Source of the DNA: Planctomycetota bacterium
GTDB lineage: Bacteria; Planctomycetota; UBA1135; UBA2386
Assembly (NCBI GenBank): GCA_016872675.1
Contig: VGZG01000036.1
Span: forward strand, 1 to 32,620
Direction: 5' to 3'
DNA: 32,620 nucleotides
Numbering within the stretch: position 1 is the stretch's first letter; every line of letters begins with the position of its first letter. The notes beneath the pieces were generated by a model. The model was given only the letters and a program-made list of their open reading frames with translations. It ran no database searches and was not told the origin of the DNA. A program made the translations under genes and the position numbers. Positions 19,470 through 26,758 of the stretch are shown here, in pieces.

Positions 19470-20009
19470 ATGAACGGCGAACTGCGCGAGGCGCTGCGCA
19501 TCGTCGGCACGTGCGTCGGCGGCGCCGTGCTCTACGGCGTCCTGCACGACCTCGTCACCGCGCACCTGAGCGTCGAGTACTTCACCGTCGCGCATCCGTG
19601 GATCGGCACCGACGACCCGATCTTGCTGGCGCTCGCCTGGGGCGTGCTGGCGACGTGGTGGGTCGGCGTATTGCTCGGCGTGCCGCTCGCGGCAGCGGCA
19701 CGGCTGGGACGCGCGCCGCGCGTCACCGCCGTCGAACTGCGAGCGGCGATCCTGCGCCTGCTGGTCGTCATGGGCGTCGCTGCCGTCGCGGCGATGTTGT
19801 TCGCGGCGCTGGCGACGGGCGAGACGTTCTACCTGCCGGATCCACTGTTCGAGCGCGTGCCGCGCGACCGCCACGGACGCCTCGCCGTCGCCGCCGTCGG
19901 CCATGCGGTCAGCTACTTCGCCGGATTCGTCGGCGGCATCGCACTGATCGTGCGCACCGTGCGCGACCGCCGCCGCGCCGCTTGCGCGGCCGCCACCGGC
20001 GTCCCGTAG
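19470..20009 (+). CDS. Four-helix membrane protein of unknown function, upstream of SelW-like gene
   Basis: The 179-residue protein starts at ATG 19470 and has hydrophobic segments at about 11-30, 51-73, 92-115 and 138-161. Between the first and second lies 'H-D-L-V-T-A-H-L-S-V-E-Y-F-T-V-A-H-P', a His/Tyr/Glu-rich loop that looks conserved and could bind a metal or ligand. The loop near residues 118-130 ('P-D-P-L-F-E-R-V-P-R-D-R-H') is also polar and distinctive. The C-terminus is Arg-rich and probably cytoplasmic. It ends 8 nt before the selenoprotein gene and is probably co-transcribed with it. I have seen this general 'D-L-V-T-A-H-x-x-V-E-Y-F-T' pattern in bacterial proteins of unknown function but cannot name a family. 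Confidence 0.75.
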   Translation: MNGELREALRIVGTCVGGAVLYGVLHDLVTAHLSVEYFTVAHPWIGTDDPILLALAWGVLATWWVGVLLGVPLAAAARLGRAPRVTAVELRAAILRLLVVMGVAAVAAMLFAALATGETFYLPDPLFERVPRDRHGRLAVAAVGHAVSYFAGFVGGIALIVRTVRDRRRAACAAATGVP

Positions 20010-20017
20010 ACGCACCG

Positions 20018-20272
20018 ATGAAGGTCACCATCAAGCACTGCGTCTCCTGAGGATTTGGGTCGCGCGCGGCGGGTCTCGCCGCGCACATCGAGGACGCCCT
20101 CGGCATCCAGGTCGTGCGCGAGCGCGGCAGCCTCGGCCAGTTCGACGTTCTTGCCGATGACACGCTGATCGCCAGCCGAGGCGGCAGCATGCTGAAGAAG
20201 GCGCTTGGCGGCGGCTGGCCCGACCCCGAGGAAGTGCTCGCCAAGATCGAGGCGATACAGCGCGCGAACTAG
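20018..20272 (+). CDS. SelW-like (Rdx family) selenoprotein with in-frame UGA
   Basis: Translated with TGA 20048-20050 as selenocysteine, the ATG at 20018 gives an 84-residue protein with C8-V-S-U11 right after the first beta strand ('M-K-V-T-I-K-H'). This is the CxxU redox motif of the Rdx/SelW thioredoxin-like family. It is followed by the typical 'R-A-A-G-L-A-A-H-I-E' helix, 'G-Q-F-D-V-L-A-D-D-T-L-I-A-S-R' strands and 'W-P-D-P-E-E-V-L-A-K-I' helix. Reading normally would stop after ten codons. A strong hairpin follows the UGA (see next entry). These proteins are thought to carry out thiol or selenol redox reactions in the cytoplasm. The gene is 8 nt after a membrane protein gene. It requires SelA, SelB, SelC and SelD, none of which are in the window. 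A real stop with a decayed gene is the alternative, but the frame, motif and hairpin argue against it. Confidence 0.9.
20064..20084 (+). promoter_or_regulatory. Candidate bacterial SECIS hairpin
   Basis: GCGCGGCG (20064-20071) pairs perfectly with CGCCGCGC (20077-20084) around the loop GGTCT (20072-20076). The stem begins 13 nt after the TGA and the loop lies 22-26 nt after it. This is within the window used by bacterial SECIS elements, and the loop contains the conserved early guanine. The same GGUCU loop is known from E. coli fdhF. SelB would bind this loop to deliver Sec-tRNA. Confidence 0.85.
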
Positions 20273-20419: not shown

Positions 20420-21526
20420 TCAGACGTTGAACTTGAACAGCAGCACGTCGCCGTCCGCGACGACGTACTCCTTGCCTTCGATGCGATAGAGGCCCTTCTC
20501 GCGCGCCACCGCGACGCTGCCGCAGGCGACGAGATCCTTGTAGGCGACCGTCTCGGCCTTGATGAAGCCGCGCTCGAAGTCGGTGTGGATCACGCCCGCC
20601 GCCTTAGGCGCGGTGTCGCCGGCGCGGATCGTCCAGGCGCGCACCTCCTTCTCGCCGGCGGTGAAGTACGTGCGCAGGCCGAGCAGGTGGTAGGTCGCGC
20701 GGATCAGCGCGCCGACGCCGGACTCCTTGACGCCGAGGTCGGCGAGGAAGGCCTTGGCGTCGTCGGGCTCGAGGTCGACGAGGTCGCTCTCGATCTGCGC
20801 CGAGATCACGATCGCCTCGCAGGCGAGGTGGCTCTTGGCGTACTCGCGCACCTTCTGCACGTACGGGTTCTGGTCCGCCGTCGCGAGCTGATCGTCCTTC
20901 ACGTTGCAGGCGAAGATCGTCGGCTTGTCGGTCAGCAGCTGGAAGTTCTTCGCGATCGCCTTCTCCTCGTCGTTGAGTTCGACGAGCAGCGCCGGCTTGC
21001 CGGCGTTGAGCGCCGGCAGCACCTTCTGCAACACCGGCATCTCGGCGATCGCCTCCTTGTCGCCGCGCTTGGCCTGCTTCTGCTGCCGGTCGATGCGCTT
21101 CTCGACGGCCTCGAGGTCGGCGAGCACCAATTCGGTCGTGATGACCTCGATGTCGCGCACCGGGTCGACGCCGCCGGCGACGTGGTGGATTTCCGGGTCC
21201 TCGAAGCAACGCACGACCTGGACGATCGCGTTCACCTCGCGGATATGGCTGAGGAACTTGTTGCCGAGGCCCTCTCCCGACGAAGCGCCCTTGACCAGGC
21301 CGGCGATGTCGACGAATTCGATCGCCGCCGGGATCACGACGTTGGTCTTGGCGATCTTCTGCAGGACCTGCAGGCGCTCGTCCGGCACCGTCACGACGCC
21401 GACGTTGGGGTCGATCGTGCAGAAGGGGTAGTTCGCCGCCTGCGCTTTGCGCGTGCGGGTGACGGCGTTGAAGAGCGTGGACTTGCCGACGTTGGGCAGC
21501 CCGACGATGCCAGCCTTGAGGGTCAT
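20420..21526 (-). CDS. ychF: YchF / Obg-like ATPase (Ola1 family)
   Basis: YchF is a conserved P-loop protein that associates with ribosomes and prefers ATP over GTP. The 368-residue length matches (E. coli 363). The Walker A motif is G9-L-P-N-V-G-K-S-T17; switch II is '[12 protein letters not shown]'; and the nucleotide-specificity position reads 'A-C-N-V-K-D' in place of the canonical GTPase NKxD. '[11 protein letters not shown]' is a strong family signature. The C-terminal TGS domain is visible in '[13 protein letters not shown]' and '[15 protein letters not shown]'. It begins 22 nt after the etfA stop on the same strand and may be read through from the etf promoter. Confidence 0.97.
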
Positions 21527-22554: not shown

Positions 22555-23304
22555 TCAGAGGGCCTTGGTCTCGCGCAGGGCGGCGATCAGCGCTGGCACC
22601 GCGCCGGCGCCGTTGCCGACGATCTTGCCGGCGGCGCGCGGCGCGGGCAGCGACAGCGCGACGATCTCCATGCCGCGCGCGCCGAGCTGGGCGGGCTGCT
22701 CGACGAACGGCTTCTTCTTCGCCGCCATGATGCCCTTGAGGTTGGCGTAGCGCGGCTCGTTGAGGCCCTTCTGGCAGCTGATCACCGCGGGCGTCTTGCA
22801 CGCGACGACCTCGCGCGCGCCCTCGATGTCGCGCTCGGCGGTGAACGCGCCGTCGGCCAGCGTCAGTTTGCCGACCTCGGTCACGCACGCGAAGCCCAGG
22901 CGTCCGGCGAGGTTGGCCGGTAGCTGGTTGTTGTCCGAGTCGACGGCCTGGCGGCCGCACAGCACGAGGTGGCACGGCACGGTCTTGATCCACGCAGCGA
23001 GCGCGCTGGCGACCTGCATGCCGTCGTACATCCAGTCCGTCGTGCTCAGCAGCACGGCCTTGTCGGCGCCGCGCGCGAGCGCGTCGTCGAGCTGCTTCTT
23101 GCAGTCCTTCGGGCCGACCGTCACCACCGTCACCGAGCCGGCGTTCAGCTGTTCCTTGATGCGCAGCGCCTGCTCGAGCGCGAATTCGTCGTACGCATTG
23201 AGTTCGAAGGTGACGCCGGCGGTCTCGATCGACTTGCCATCGGCGGCGATCTTGATCGCCGTGTCCGTGGCGGGAACTCGCTTGATGCAGACGACGATGT
23301 CCAT
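22555..23304 (-). CDS. etfB: Electron transfer flavoprotein subunit beta
   Basis: The ATG at 23304 gives 249 residues starting 'M-D-I-V-V-C-I-K-R-V-P-A-T-D-T', the normal start for EtfB. The frame is open far upstream, but that extension is antisense to the neighbouring lipoprotein gene and was rejected. Family signs include 'N-A-Y-D-E-F-A-L-E-Q-A-L', 'V-L-C-G-R-Q-A-V-D-S-D', 'Q-L-P-A-N-L-A-G-R-L-G' and 'N-E-P-R-Y-A-N-L-K-G-I-M-A-A-K-K-K'. The beta subunit binds AMP structurally and docks the partner dehydrogenase. Its gene precedes etfA by 22 nt in one operon. Confidence 0.97.
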   Translation of the reverse strand: MDIVVCIKRVPATDTAIKIAADGKSIETAGVTFELNAYDEFALEQALRIKEQLNAGSVTVVTVGPKDCKKQLDDALARGADKAVLLSTTDWMYDGMQVASALAAWIKTVPCHLVLCGRQAVDSDNNQLPANLAGRLGFACVTEVGKLTLADGAFTAERDIEGAREVVACKTPAVISCQKGLNEPRYANLKGIMAAKKKPFVEQPAQLGARGMEIVALSLPAPRAAGKIVGNGAGAVPALIAALRETKAL

Positions 23305-23655
23305 GGTCAACGTGCCGGGCGTCGGCCCGGGTCGGGCGGGAGTTTGAGGGGCGAAGAGTCTAGCGACGGCGGCGCGGCGGGCGACCTTGCATTTTGGCCA
23401 GCGCCGGGGCGCGCCCGGCGGGCGGTCGTTCGCCGCCGCCGTCCGCCCGGACGCAACCCGGGGGATGGCGCGGGATTTCACCGGGGCGGCGGAGTCGGCG
23501 GACGCGCCGGCCGTCGCCGTGCGCGCGGCCGTGCCGACCTCAGAAGGCGGCGGTTCGCGGGCGACGGCGGGGCGATGCCGCGGCGATGTTGTCGGGCGGG
23601 CCGGTCGCCGCGCGCCTGCGTGGCCGCACCCGCGCCGCCGCGCTAGCGTGCGCCG
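23305..23655. other. 351-nt divergent spacer between etfB and a lipoprotein gene
   Basis: No credible gene is seen. The open frames on both strands are GC-driven and yield Ala/Arg/Pro-rich products. The spacer must hold the promoters for the etf operon (leftward) and the lipoprotein gene (rightward), but no clear -35/-10 pair or operator was recognised. Confidence 0.5.
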
Positions 23656-24288
23656 ATGCGCCGCGCCGTCCGCCGCCTTGCTTGCCTCCTGCCGCTCGCC
23701 GTCGCCGCCACGGCGCCGGGCTGCGCGTACTGGCGCGCGCGCGCCGTCGACTTCGACGACAGCTTCCTCTACCGCTGGCACGACGGCGCGCTCGGCGGCG
23801 CGCTCGAAGCCAAGGCCGGTCCGCTCGACGCGGCGCTCGGCGCGTGGATCGCCGACGGCGGTTGGGGCAAGGACACGTTCTGGCAGACGCCCGGCGAGAC
23901 GCTGACGCGGCAGGGCATGGGCGTGCCGTTCACGACGCTCGGGCCGTTGCTGTGGCGCGCGCCGCTCGGCCAGTTCCTCGCCACCAGCTCGCTCGGCAAC
24001 CATCCCGCCGACCCGCAGACGTTTCAGGACGTGCGCGCGTACCTCGGCGTCAGCGACGTGTTCGACCTCGACGACCGCTACCCGTTCGTGCTGTCGCCGC
24101 AGCGCCGCATCGCCGACCTGTTCGGCGTCGAGGTCGGCGTGGTGCCGGTGTTCGTCGGCGCGCGGCTCGGCTTCAACGTCGCCGAGTTCGCCGACTTCCT
24201 GCTCGGCTTCGCGTTCGTCGACCTGCTCGGCGACGACGGCGTGGCCCGCCCGCCGACGCTGCCGTACGTGCCGGTCGGCGGCGGCTGA
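23656..24288 (+). CDS. Lipoprotein of unknown function
   Basis: The 210-residue product begins with a basic n-region (R-R-A-V-R-R), a hydrophobic core, and a lipobox-like A-P-G-C with Cys23. The mature protein has 'D-D-S-F-L-Y-R-W-H-D-G-A-L-G', 'P-F-T-T-L-G-P-L-L-W' and 'L-G-F-N-V-A-E-F-A-D-F-L-L-G-F-A-F-V-D-L-L-G-D-D'. The last segment resembles small planctomycete and myxobacterial lipoproteins with 'R-x-G-x-N-x-x-E-x-x-D-F-x-x-G'. No catalytic motif is evident. It stands alone between the etf operon and the convergent repeat-protein gene. Confidence 0.75.
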   Translation: MRRAVRRLACLLPLAVAATAPGCAYWRARAVDFDDSFLYRWHDGALGGALEAKAGPLDAALGAWIADGGWGKDTFWQTPGETLTRQGMGVPFTTLGPLLWRAPLGQFLATSSLGNHPADPQTFQDVRAYLGVSDVFDLDDRYPFVLSPQRRIADLFGVEVGVVPVFVGARLGFNVAEFADFLLGFAFVDLLGDDGVARPPTLPYVPVGGG

Positions 24289-24325
24289 GCCGCAGCGCGC
24301 CGCCGGCGGACGGGCTCGCGGTTGT

Positions 24326-26758
24326 TCAGTAGCTGCCGACGACGAGGTCGAGCGCGTTGGTGGCGCCGACGGCGAGCGACGGATCGAGCGCGAAGCTGAC
24401 GACCTGCTGGCGGAAGGCGGCCCCGGCGAGCGCGGGCACGTTGGGGATGACGAACGCGAGCTGCGCTTCGCCATTGACGGCGAGCTGCACGGTGGTGACG
24501 TCCGGCTGCACGAGCAGCGCGCAGCCCGGCAGCGCGGTCGCGAACACGCTGGCGAGCGGCAGGTTGGCGGCTTGCGTGCTGCCGACCGTGATCGCGAACG
24601 CGGCGTTCGGCAGGCCGCTCGCCTGCAGGCGCAGCGTCTGGCCGAGCCACGGCGCATCGCTCGCGAGGTCGCCAGCGGGCGACGCGCAGCCGGGCGCGAC
24701 GGCGTTCGCGGCGCTCGGGCAGCCGGTCGCGAAGCGCGCCGCGGCGGCGACCCGCGTCGCGTCGAGGACCGCAGTGCCGACGATCAGCACGTCGCCGTTG
24801 CGCAGCGCGATCGGCTTCACGAACCCGCTCGCGTGCAGCGGCGTCCAGGCGGTCCCGTCCCAGCGCAGCGTCGTGCGCACCTGCGGCGCGGCGCCGGACG
24901 CGATGTTGGCGACGAGGCCGCCATCAGGCAACGCGGCGACGCCGATGGCGTTCGGGGTGGCCAGGGCGCCGAGCGTCTGGAACGTGGCGCCGTCGTAGCG
25001 CAGCACGCCGCTATTCGACGTCGTGAGCGCGATGCTGCCGTCGCGCAGTTCGACGACTTCCTGCGGCGTCGGCGCGCCCGGCACGGCGGTCGAAGTGCGC
25101 GTCGCGCCGACCCAGCGGTCGAGCAAAGTCGTCAATCCAGGGCTCCCGCTCGTGCGCCGCAGCACGACGAACGCGCCGTCGCGGCACGCAGCGAGCGCGA
25201 TGTTGCCTTCGCCCGCCGCGGCCGTCGCGACCGTCAGCCACTGGGCGCCATCGAAACGGCGGATGGACTGATCCACCATCAGCACGACGAGATCCCCGTT
25301 GGGCAGTTGCACGGCGCGGTTCACGGCCCCGCCGAGGCCGCCGACCGGTTGCCAGCTCGTGCCGTCGAAGCGCGCGACGCCGATCGCGGCGACGCCGCCG
25401 ATCGACGTGAAGGTGCCGGCGACGATGTAGCTGCCGTCGTCTTGCGGCAGGATGGCGTTGACTTGCGCCGGCGCTCCGATCGCGTTCTGCGGGCGTGCGC
25501 CGGTCGGTTCGACCGTCCAGCCCGCGGCGCCGTAGCGCACGAAGCCGCCCGGCGCTGGCAAGTTGCTCAGCGCTGGCGTCGTGCTGGCAGCGCTGGTGAA
25601 CACGTAGGCCACGATGCTGCCGTCGCGAGTTTCCGCCGCAGCCAGCACGGAGCCGACGACGCCGTCGGCGACGGGGCGCGCCGTCCCGCCCTGCGCGAAG
25701 TAGCCGAATGGCGGCACGACCGTGGTGGCGTTGGTGCTGGTGCCGAACAGCAGCGCGCCATTGGGCTGCAACTGGGCGTGGGTCGTGAAGACGGCGTTGG
25801 CGAAGATCGTCTGCCACGCGCCCGCGACATACTGCGCGCTGCCGAGCGTGCCGAAGGCGATCGGTTCGCCCGCGGCGTTGACGCCACCGCCGCTGATGCC
25901 GACCAATAGCATCGGCGACGGGTACGGCTGCCAGCCGGCCGCCGTCCAGCGCGCGACGCCACCCGCAGCGACGCCGCCGCCGACCGTGGTGAAGGTGCCG
26001 AACGCGAAGAACTCGCCGTTCGGCAGCGGCTCGACGTCGCGAACGAGGTTGTTGGCGCCGCCTTGCAGCGTGCGCACCACGCCGGTCGCCCACTCGTAGA
26101 TGGCGACGTTGTTGGCCGGTTGGCCGGCGACCGACGAGAACGAGCCGGCGATCAGCAGGTCGCCGTTGGGCAGGCGCGCGACGTCGGTGGCGCTGCCGCC
26201 GAAGCTGCCGCTGGCCGGGCCCAGGGCGACGCCGAACGCCGACGTGCCGTCGAAGTAGCCGAGCCCCGCGCTCTCGACGTAGCTGAGTTCGCTGGCGCCG
26301 AGCGGAGCCAGCGCGGTGACCTGGCCGACCAGCGCCGGCGGCGGCGACGCCAGCGCGGTCCACTGGGCGCCGTCGAAGCGCGCGATGCGCGGCGCGGTCA
26401 CGCCGCCGGCCGTCGTGAAGCTGCCGCCGACCACGAGGCGGTTGGCGCCGTCGATCGCGAGGCTGAACACGGCGCCGTCGCAGCCGGCGCCGAGTGGCTG
26501 CCAGCCGAGCGCGGCATCGAGGCGCGCGACGCTGTTGGCGACGACGCCGCCGACGCGCCGGAAGGCGCCGCCGATCACGAGTTCGGCCGGCAGCGGGCCG
26601 CTGCCGTCGCGGTCCCAGAGGACGCTGTCGTGCAGCGCGCCGTCGAGGCCCGACGGCACGTCGAGCGTCTGCAGCTGGCTGCCGCACGGCGACTGGGCGA
26701 AGAGGGCGCTGGCGAAGCAGAGGGCCAGCGCGGAACGCAGGGCGAAGGGTGTGGGCAT
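24326..26758 (-). CDS. Large secreted beta-propeller-like repeat protein
   Basis: The ATG at 26758 is used because it begins a standard signal peptide ('M-P-T-P-F-A-L-R-S-A-L-A-L-C-F-A-S-A-L-F'). A longer frame adds only an Arg-rich stretch. The 810-residue product has many repeats of the form 'G-G-S-F-T-T-A-G-G-V-x-A-x-x-I-A-R-F-D-G-x-x-W-x-x-L', each about 45-55 residues, like kelch or delta-60 repeats that build beta-propellers. The last 110 or so residues form a separate beta domain, starting 'W-L-G-Q-T-L-R-L-Q-A-S-G-L-P' and ending 'N-A-L-D-L-V-V-G-S-Y'. I associate both parts with Planctomycetota secreted proteins. No enzyme site is visible; a cell-surface or extracellular role is inferred. 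Confidence 0.82.
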   Translation of the reverse strand: MPTPFALRSALALCFASALFAQSPCGSQLQTLDVPSGLDGALHDSVLWDRDGSGPLPAELVIGGAFRRVGGVVANSVARLDAALGWQPLGAGCDGAVFSLAIDGANRLVVGGSFTTAGGVTAPRIARFDGAQWTALASPPPALVGQVTALAPLGASELSYVESAGLGYFDGTSAFGVALGPASGSFGGSATDVARLPNGDLLIAGSFSSVAGQPANNVAIYEWATGVVRTLQGGANNLVRDVEPLPNGEFFAFGTFTTVGGGVAAGGVARWTAAGWQPYPSPMLLVGISGGGVNAAGEPIAFGTLGSAQYVAGAWQTIFANAVFTTHAQLQPNGALLFGTSTNATTVVPPFGYFAQGGTARPVADGVVGSVLAAAETRDGSIVAYVFTSAASTTPALSNLPAPGGFVRYGAAGWTVEPTGARPQNAIGAPAQVNAILPQDDGSYIVAGTFTSIGGVAAIGVARFDGTSWQPVGGLGGAVNRAVQLPNGDLVVLMVDQSIRRFDGAQWLTVATAAAGEGNIALAACRDGAFVVLRRTSGSPGLTTLLDRWVGATRTSTAVPGAPTPQEVVELRDGSIALTTSNSGVLRYDGATFQTLGALATPNAIGVAALPDGGLVANIASGAAPQVRTTLRWDGTAWTPLHASGFVKPIALRNGDVLIVGTAVLDATRVAAAARFATGCPSAANAVAPGCASPAGDLASDAPWLGQTLRLQASGLPNAAFAITVGSTQAANLPLASVFATALPGCALLVQPDVTTVQLAVNGEAQLAFVIPNVPALAGAAFRQQVVSFALDPSLAVGATNALDLVVGSY

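Follow-up and report, generated by a model that had tools for sequence, protein, structure and literature searches.

A predicted SelW/Rdx-family selenoprotein with an in-frame TGA and a bacterial SECIS hairpin in a planctomycete genome

The window, as we call the 32,620-nucleotide stretch of planctomycete DNA analyzed here, very probably (with a probability of about 96%) encodes a small thioredoxin-fold redox protein of the SelW/Rdx family with a Cys8-x-x-Sec11 site, in which UGA is decoded as selenocysteine (Sec) by means of SelB and a hairpin. The computational analysis reveals homology to this family, retention of the TGA across relatives, selection on the hairpin at the level of the RNA, and the presence of all four Sec genes in the host genome; on the strength of these sequences, we strongly infer that the TGA is recoded in the cell. 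Because SelW-like selenoproteins are already a known family, the gene is not a new kind of protein but an addition to a long-known bacterial group, for which a literature search returned no description from Planctomycetota.

A concealed frame and its family

The gene (20018 to 20272, forward strand) starts at an ATG at 20018, passes through an in-frame TGA at 20048 to 20050 and ends with a TAG at 20270 to 20272. With the TGA read as Sec, the frame (20018 to 20269) specifies 84 residues, MKVTIKHCVSUGFGSRAAGLAAHIEDALGIQVVRERGSLGQFDVLADDTLIASRGGSMLKKALGGGWPDPEEVLAKIEAIQRAN, thereby confirming, coordinates included, the hidden frame with U11 in a C8-V-S-U11 motif that the initial annotation had described. 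Standard gene finders would miss this gene because an in-frame TGA, here predicted to encode Sec, reads as a stop.

The same annotation had assigned the product to the Rdx/SelW family, an assignment borne out by three kinds of comparison. With U written as C, the protein scores 36.7 bits against the Pfam Rdx profile (PF10262; gathering cut-off 22.6; E 5.1e-9), and a PDB search with a profile of 22 relatives matched SelW-related chains. An AlphaFold model (pLDDT 90.7) has the element order b-a-b-b-b-a and places the CxxU motif directly after the first strand (residues 3 to 7), as is characteristic of SELENOW-like proteins. The folds nearest to the model are the SelW-related 2fa8 and 2p0g; Rdx proteins of known structure come first, followed by mouse SelW, and the top 22 PDB fold matches are all SelW-family entries (best E 4e-6). 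Profile, PDB sequence search and predicted fold thus all agree on membership in the SelW/Rdx family. The Rdx structures 2fa8, 2p0g, 2obk, 2oka and 3dex, which presumably carry Cys in place of Sec, share the model's fold (TM about 0.75) at 18-28% identity, while eukaryotic SelW (2npb) and MIEN1/C17orf37 (2ljk) belong to the same Rdx family by profile but are distant in sequence. The closest parallel is with the bacterial SELENOW-like selenoproteins (PF10262, CxxU; Zhang et al. 2006, PMC1794560; review PMC13188914), which are alike in fold, N-terminal CxxU, short length, a bSECIS just downstream and few or no Cys forms. Against the NCBIfam profile TIGR02174 (CXXU_selWTH subfamily), the window protein scores 30.6 bits, just below the cut-off of 34.2; it therefore represents a divergent subfamily, and annotation by TIGR02174 would pass over it.

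In a tree of 80 rows, this subfamily (hereafter A) is split by a long branch (100/98) from the commoner SelW-like subfamily (B); the first sorting into A and B was a rough one, in which L037, called A, adjoins the dividing branch and L128, called B, falls among A. The host genome holds one gene of each, the window's being separate from its own B paralogue (L055; G000:C28:31957-32169), which has the site CVAU. Subfamily A is Sec-only within the sample, is found also in an Acidobacteria MAG (L054) and displays the signature GxRAAGLAAxIED ... GQFDV ... GGGWPDP. Among 22 aligned relatives, the invariant positions include C8, U11 and G40-Q41-F42; in one of the 22 (L024), position 8 is a second TGA, written as C for the alignment.

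A hairpin under selection as RNA

The feature that we interpret as a bacterial SECIS (20064 to 20084, forward strand) begins 13 nucleotides past the TGA, as the initial annotation had stated, and consists of an 8-bp stem without mismatch (20064-20071 with 20077-20084) and the loop GGTCT (20072 to 20076), which starts 21 nucleotides past the TGA. In eukaryotes, the SECIS instead sits in the 3' UTR. The published bSECIS limits (PMC13188914) are a loop of 3-9 nt, a stem of 4-16 bp, a G at loop position 1 or 2 and a UGA-to-loop distance of 16-37 nt; the window's hairpin, with its 5-nt loop, 8-bp stem and 21-nt spacing, lies within all those checked, making its earlier description as a perfect SECIS a fair one. 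The likeness to the E. coli fdhF SECIS also stands: there too a UGA precedes a hairpin, whose tip is AGGTCT, and the 5-mer GGTCT is hence common to both, although the stem is a different one, the protein is unrelated and the window's stem is without the bulged base.

The hairpin overlaps the codons of a conserved AAGLAA or AASLAA stretch, which raises the alternative that the protein is a true selenoprotein whose hairpin is a by-product of these codons, with the real SECIS elsewhere. Ala-rich codons pair easily at 72% GC (71.7% in the window), and 5 of the window's 487 TGAs (about 1%) have a bSECIS-like stem of at least 8 bp downstream, making the hairpin by itself only moderately rare; among those five, the TGA of this gene alone is combined with a loop whose first bases are GGT or NGT. 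The folding energy of a 56-nt stretch is not lower than that of shuffled sequences (z 0.29), a comparison that is uninformative at the window's GC content, and a search of the window with Rfam at the gathering threshold gave no match. As read from the sequences, the evidence for the hairpin is therefore that of conservation (homology, TGA retention, silent-site covariation and codon constraint) and not that of stability.

This conservation, with covariation at silent third positions of the stem and a loop codon held to GGT or AGT, argues strongly against a by-product, which we regard as very improbable. In subfamily A, GGT encodes the loop Gly in 18/18 genes, as against 30/310 Gly codons elsewhere after the TGA (p 4e-17), and AGT encodes the loop Ser in 15/15, as against 10/113 elsewhere (p 2e-13), these p values, like those for covariation, being inflated by kinship among the sequences. 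The loop codons of subfamily B behave likewise (AGT 21/21, GGT 17/17), and in five genes of the window GGT makes up 5 of 178 Gly codons. Stem covariation is 0.284, compared with 0.117 in shuffles, none of the 500 of which reached as high a value, and it vanishes when the partner is slid; 92% of the stem cells are paired, and 25 have changed on both sides versus 9.5 in shuffles. In three relatives, the closing pair has gone from G-C to A-T through two silent changes in different codons (GCG>GCA with CTC>CTT), a double-change pattern that would be hard to explain otherwise despite the inflated p values. The fixed Gly codon and the compensatory changes together indicate that the RNA itself is under selection. 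Further, in three Cys homologues the loop codon specifies Asn (AAC or AAT) and the hairpin loop is lost.

Retention of the TGA and the Sec-decoding machinery

A homologue was found in 55 of the 101 genomes searched, and among the matches listed all but one have the TGA; within the planctomycete order, 122 of 154 genomes have a homologue, and among the matches listed only three, all from a single genus, are without it. In the subfamily A genes that were read, drawn from many genera, the codon at position 11 is TGA in 38/38, answering in favor of Sec the question, raised by the initial annotation, of whether relatives have Cys or Sec there. Of the 42 subfamily B genes read, 39 have TGA at a CxxU or UxxU site and 3 have CxxC. 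Among the order's listed homologues, only L074, L130 and L131 of one genus (g49) are Cys forms (CGGC); their genomes keep both tRNA-Sec and a type A gene in Sec form, and this Cys paralogue, which is without the hairpin loop, is a case of Sec-to-Cys change. The nearest named relative is a Phycisphaerales MAG (L048).

These observations bear on whether the locus is a decayed Rdx gene with the TGA as an ordinary nonsense mutation, a reading that would fit a short frame with an in-frame stop. The same TGA at the same site in genes of so many genera speaks against it, as does the frame downstream of the TGA, which is under purifying selection (dN 0.09 versus dS 0.29) and accumulates no further stops; close relatives, inspected for the decay that the initial annotation had named as a possible refutation, retain an intact frame. 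Hence, decay is extremely improbable. Equally so is selenium-free decoding through genome-wide reassignment of TGA or read-through by a near-cognate tRNA, which would explain the open TGA in this frame, because TGA is the terminal stop in 28 of the 38 subfamily A genes and therefore is not reassigned, and because a dedicated tRNA-Sec, SelA, SelB and SelD accompany a hairpin under selection. Decay, chance and general reassignment were accordingly all rejected, given the retained TGA, the selected frame and hairpin, and the continued use of TGA as a stop.

That the organism encodes Sec machinery, as had been predicted from the window, proved correct, and the second refutation named by the initial annotation, a genome devoid of selA, selB, selC and selD, therefore did not materialize either. 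The host, a Planctomycetota MAG of 3.58 Mb in 182 contigs (95% complete, 0.9% contaminated; the window is contig C36), has SelA (447.5 bits), SelB (343.5 bits), SelD (344.3 bits) and tRNA-Sec (72.7 bits), all on contigs other than the window's: selA and selD adjoin on C131 (G000:C131:35-2190; L001, L075), SelB is on C1 and tRNA-Sec is on C14. Consistent with this, ARAGORN found no tRNA in the window. The host selD itself contains one in-frame TGA, like the known Sec-form SelD. In the order at large, tRNA-Sec was found in 138 of 154 genomes; of the 16 without a match, 12 have SelB and 10 have a TGA-bearing homologue, three of these ten (G091, G137 and G145; 64-88% complete) being without both tRNA-Sec and SelB. 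Gaps in the assemblies, or a strict filter that passed the gene over, look like the cause of most of these absences. With tRNA-Sec so nearly universal in the order, its co-occurrence with the homologue is not discriminating.

In bacterial Sec decoding, Sec is brought to the UGA by SelB-GTP with Sec-tRNA, which binds the hairpin. For the window gene, we propose that SelA and SelD would produce the tRNA in charged form together with the selenium donor, and that SelB carrying Sec-tRNA-Sec would bind the hairpin just 3' of the UGA, with codon 11 being decoded as selenocysteine. The function of bacterial SelW-like proteins has been given as unclear (PMC1088965). Together, a CxxU motif and a thioredoxin-like fold imply redox chemistry, and a redox role through Cys8-Sec11, with Sec11 as the probable nucleophile, is the best inference; the most likely, putative activity is the reduction or exchange of a small thiol, peroxide or protein disulfide, in the course of which a Cys8-Sec11 selenenylsulfide would form.

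Genomic context, UxxU variants and implications

Upstream of the gene lies a possible promoter (19982 to 20010, forward strand), composed of TTGCGC (19982 to 19987) and, after 17 nt, CGTAGA (20005 to 20010), which ends 7 nt before the ATG; the place of this -10-like box is similar in 11 near relatives. In the window and these relatives (L019-L028, L030), a CGATA-like box starts 12-15 nt upstream of the ATG, in many cases preceded by a TTG hexamer at a distance of about 16-17 nt, and there is no Shine-Dalgarno sequence, whereas certain less closely related members do carry Shine-Dalgarno-like stretches in place of this arrangement. The position of the box and the lack of a Shine-Dalgarno sequence suggest a transcription start at or beside the ATG, and hence a candidate leaderless mRNA.

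The ORF immediately upstream (19470 to 20009, forward; 179 aa) has no family match and a counterpart only in the nearest relative, and we do not claim it as part of a unit. Beyond it is a B12-binding radical SAM protein (TIGR04013; 17486 to 19369, forward), and downstream is the convergent gene for the YchF ATPase (20420 to 21526, reverse); since synteny with these two is kept only within the family, we claim no functional link. The window also encodes a DGQHR/DndB-like protein (TIGR03187; 16285 to 17526, reverse). The radical SAM ORF and that at 22555 to 24657 (reverse) are far longer than their homologous parts, which begin at residue 212 and, for ETF beta, at residue 453; their true starts are probably internal.

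Three relatives have a UxxU site, with two TGAs nine nucleotides apart and a single hairpin downstream: L024 in subfamily A (MDITIFHUTSU; L024:1501-1746), and L068 (MKVSITYUGQU; L068:1267-1476) and L129 (MHITVTYUGVU; G081:C74:159221-159430, reverse strand) in subfamily B. All three genomes have tRNA-Sec; each case comes from one assembly, in which base errors are possible. A 2026 review describes SELENOW-like proteins as CxxU with one Sec, UxxU being known from other families (PMC13188914). One tentative possibility, which we consider somewhat doubtful, is that the window's gene, transcribed as a leaderless mRNA, belongs to a separate Rdx subfamily that is Sec-obligate and has a role of its own beside the ordinary SelW-like paralogue, and that in L024, L068 and L129 a single hairpin directs the decoding of two UGAs to yield UxxU.

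Taking the SelW/Rdx selenoprotein reading as a whole, the window adds a well-supported selenoprotein, together with a subfamily whose member here falls under the NCBI cut-off, for a planctomycete order rich in tRNA-Sec. The uncommon features in its relatives deserve follow-up: UxxU is a site absent from the published motif list for SelW-like proteins, the paired subfamilies offer a test of why Sec persists in the absence of Cys forms, and the variants with UxxU offer one of how a single SECIS could serve two UGAs.
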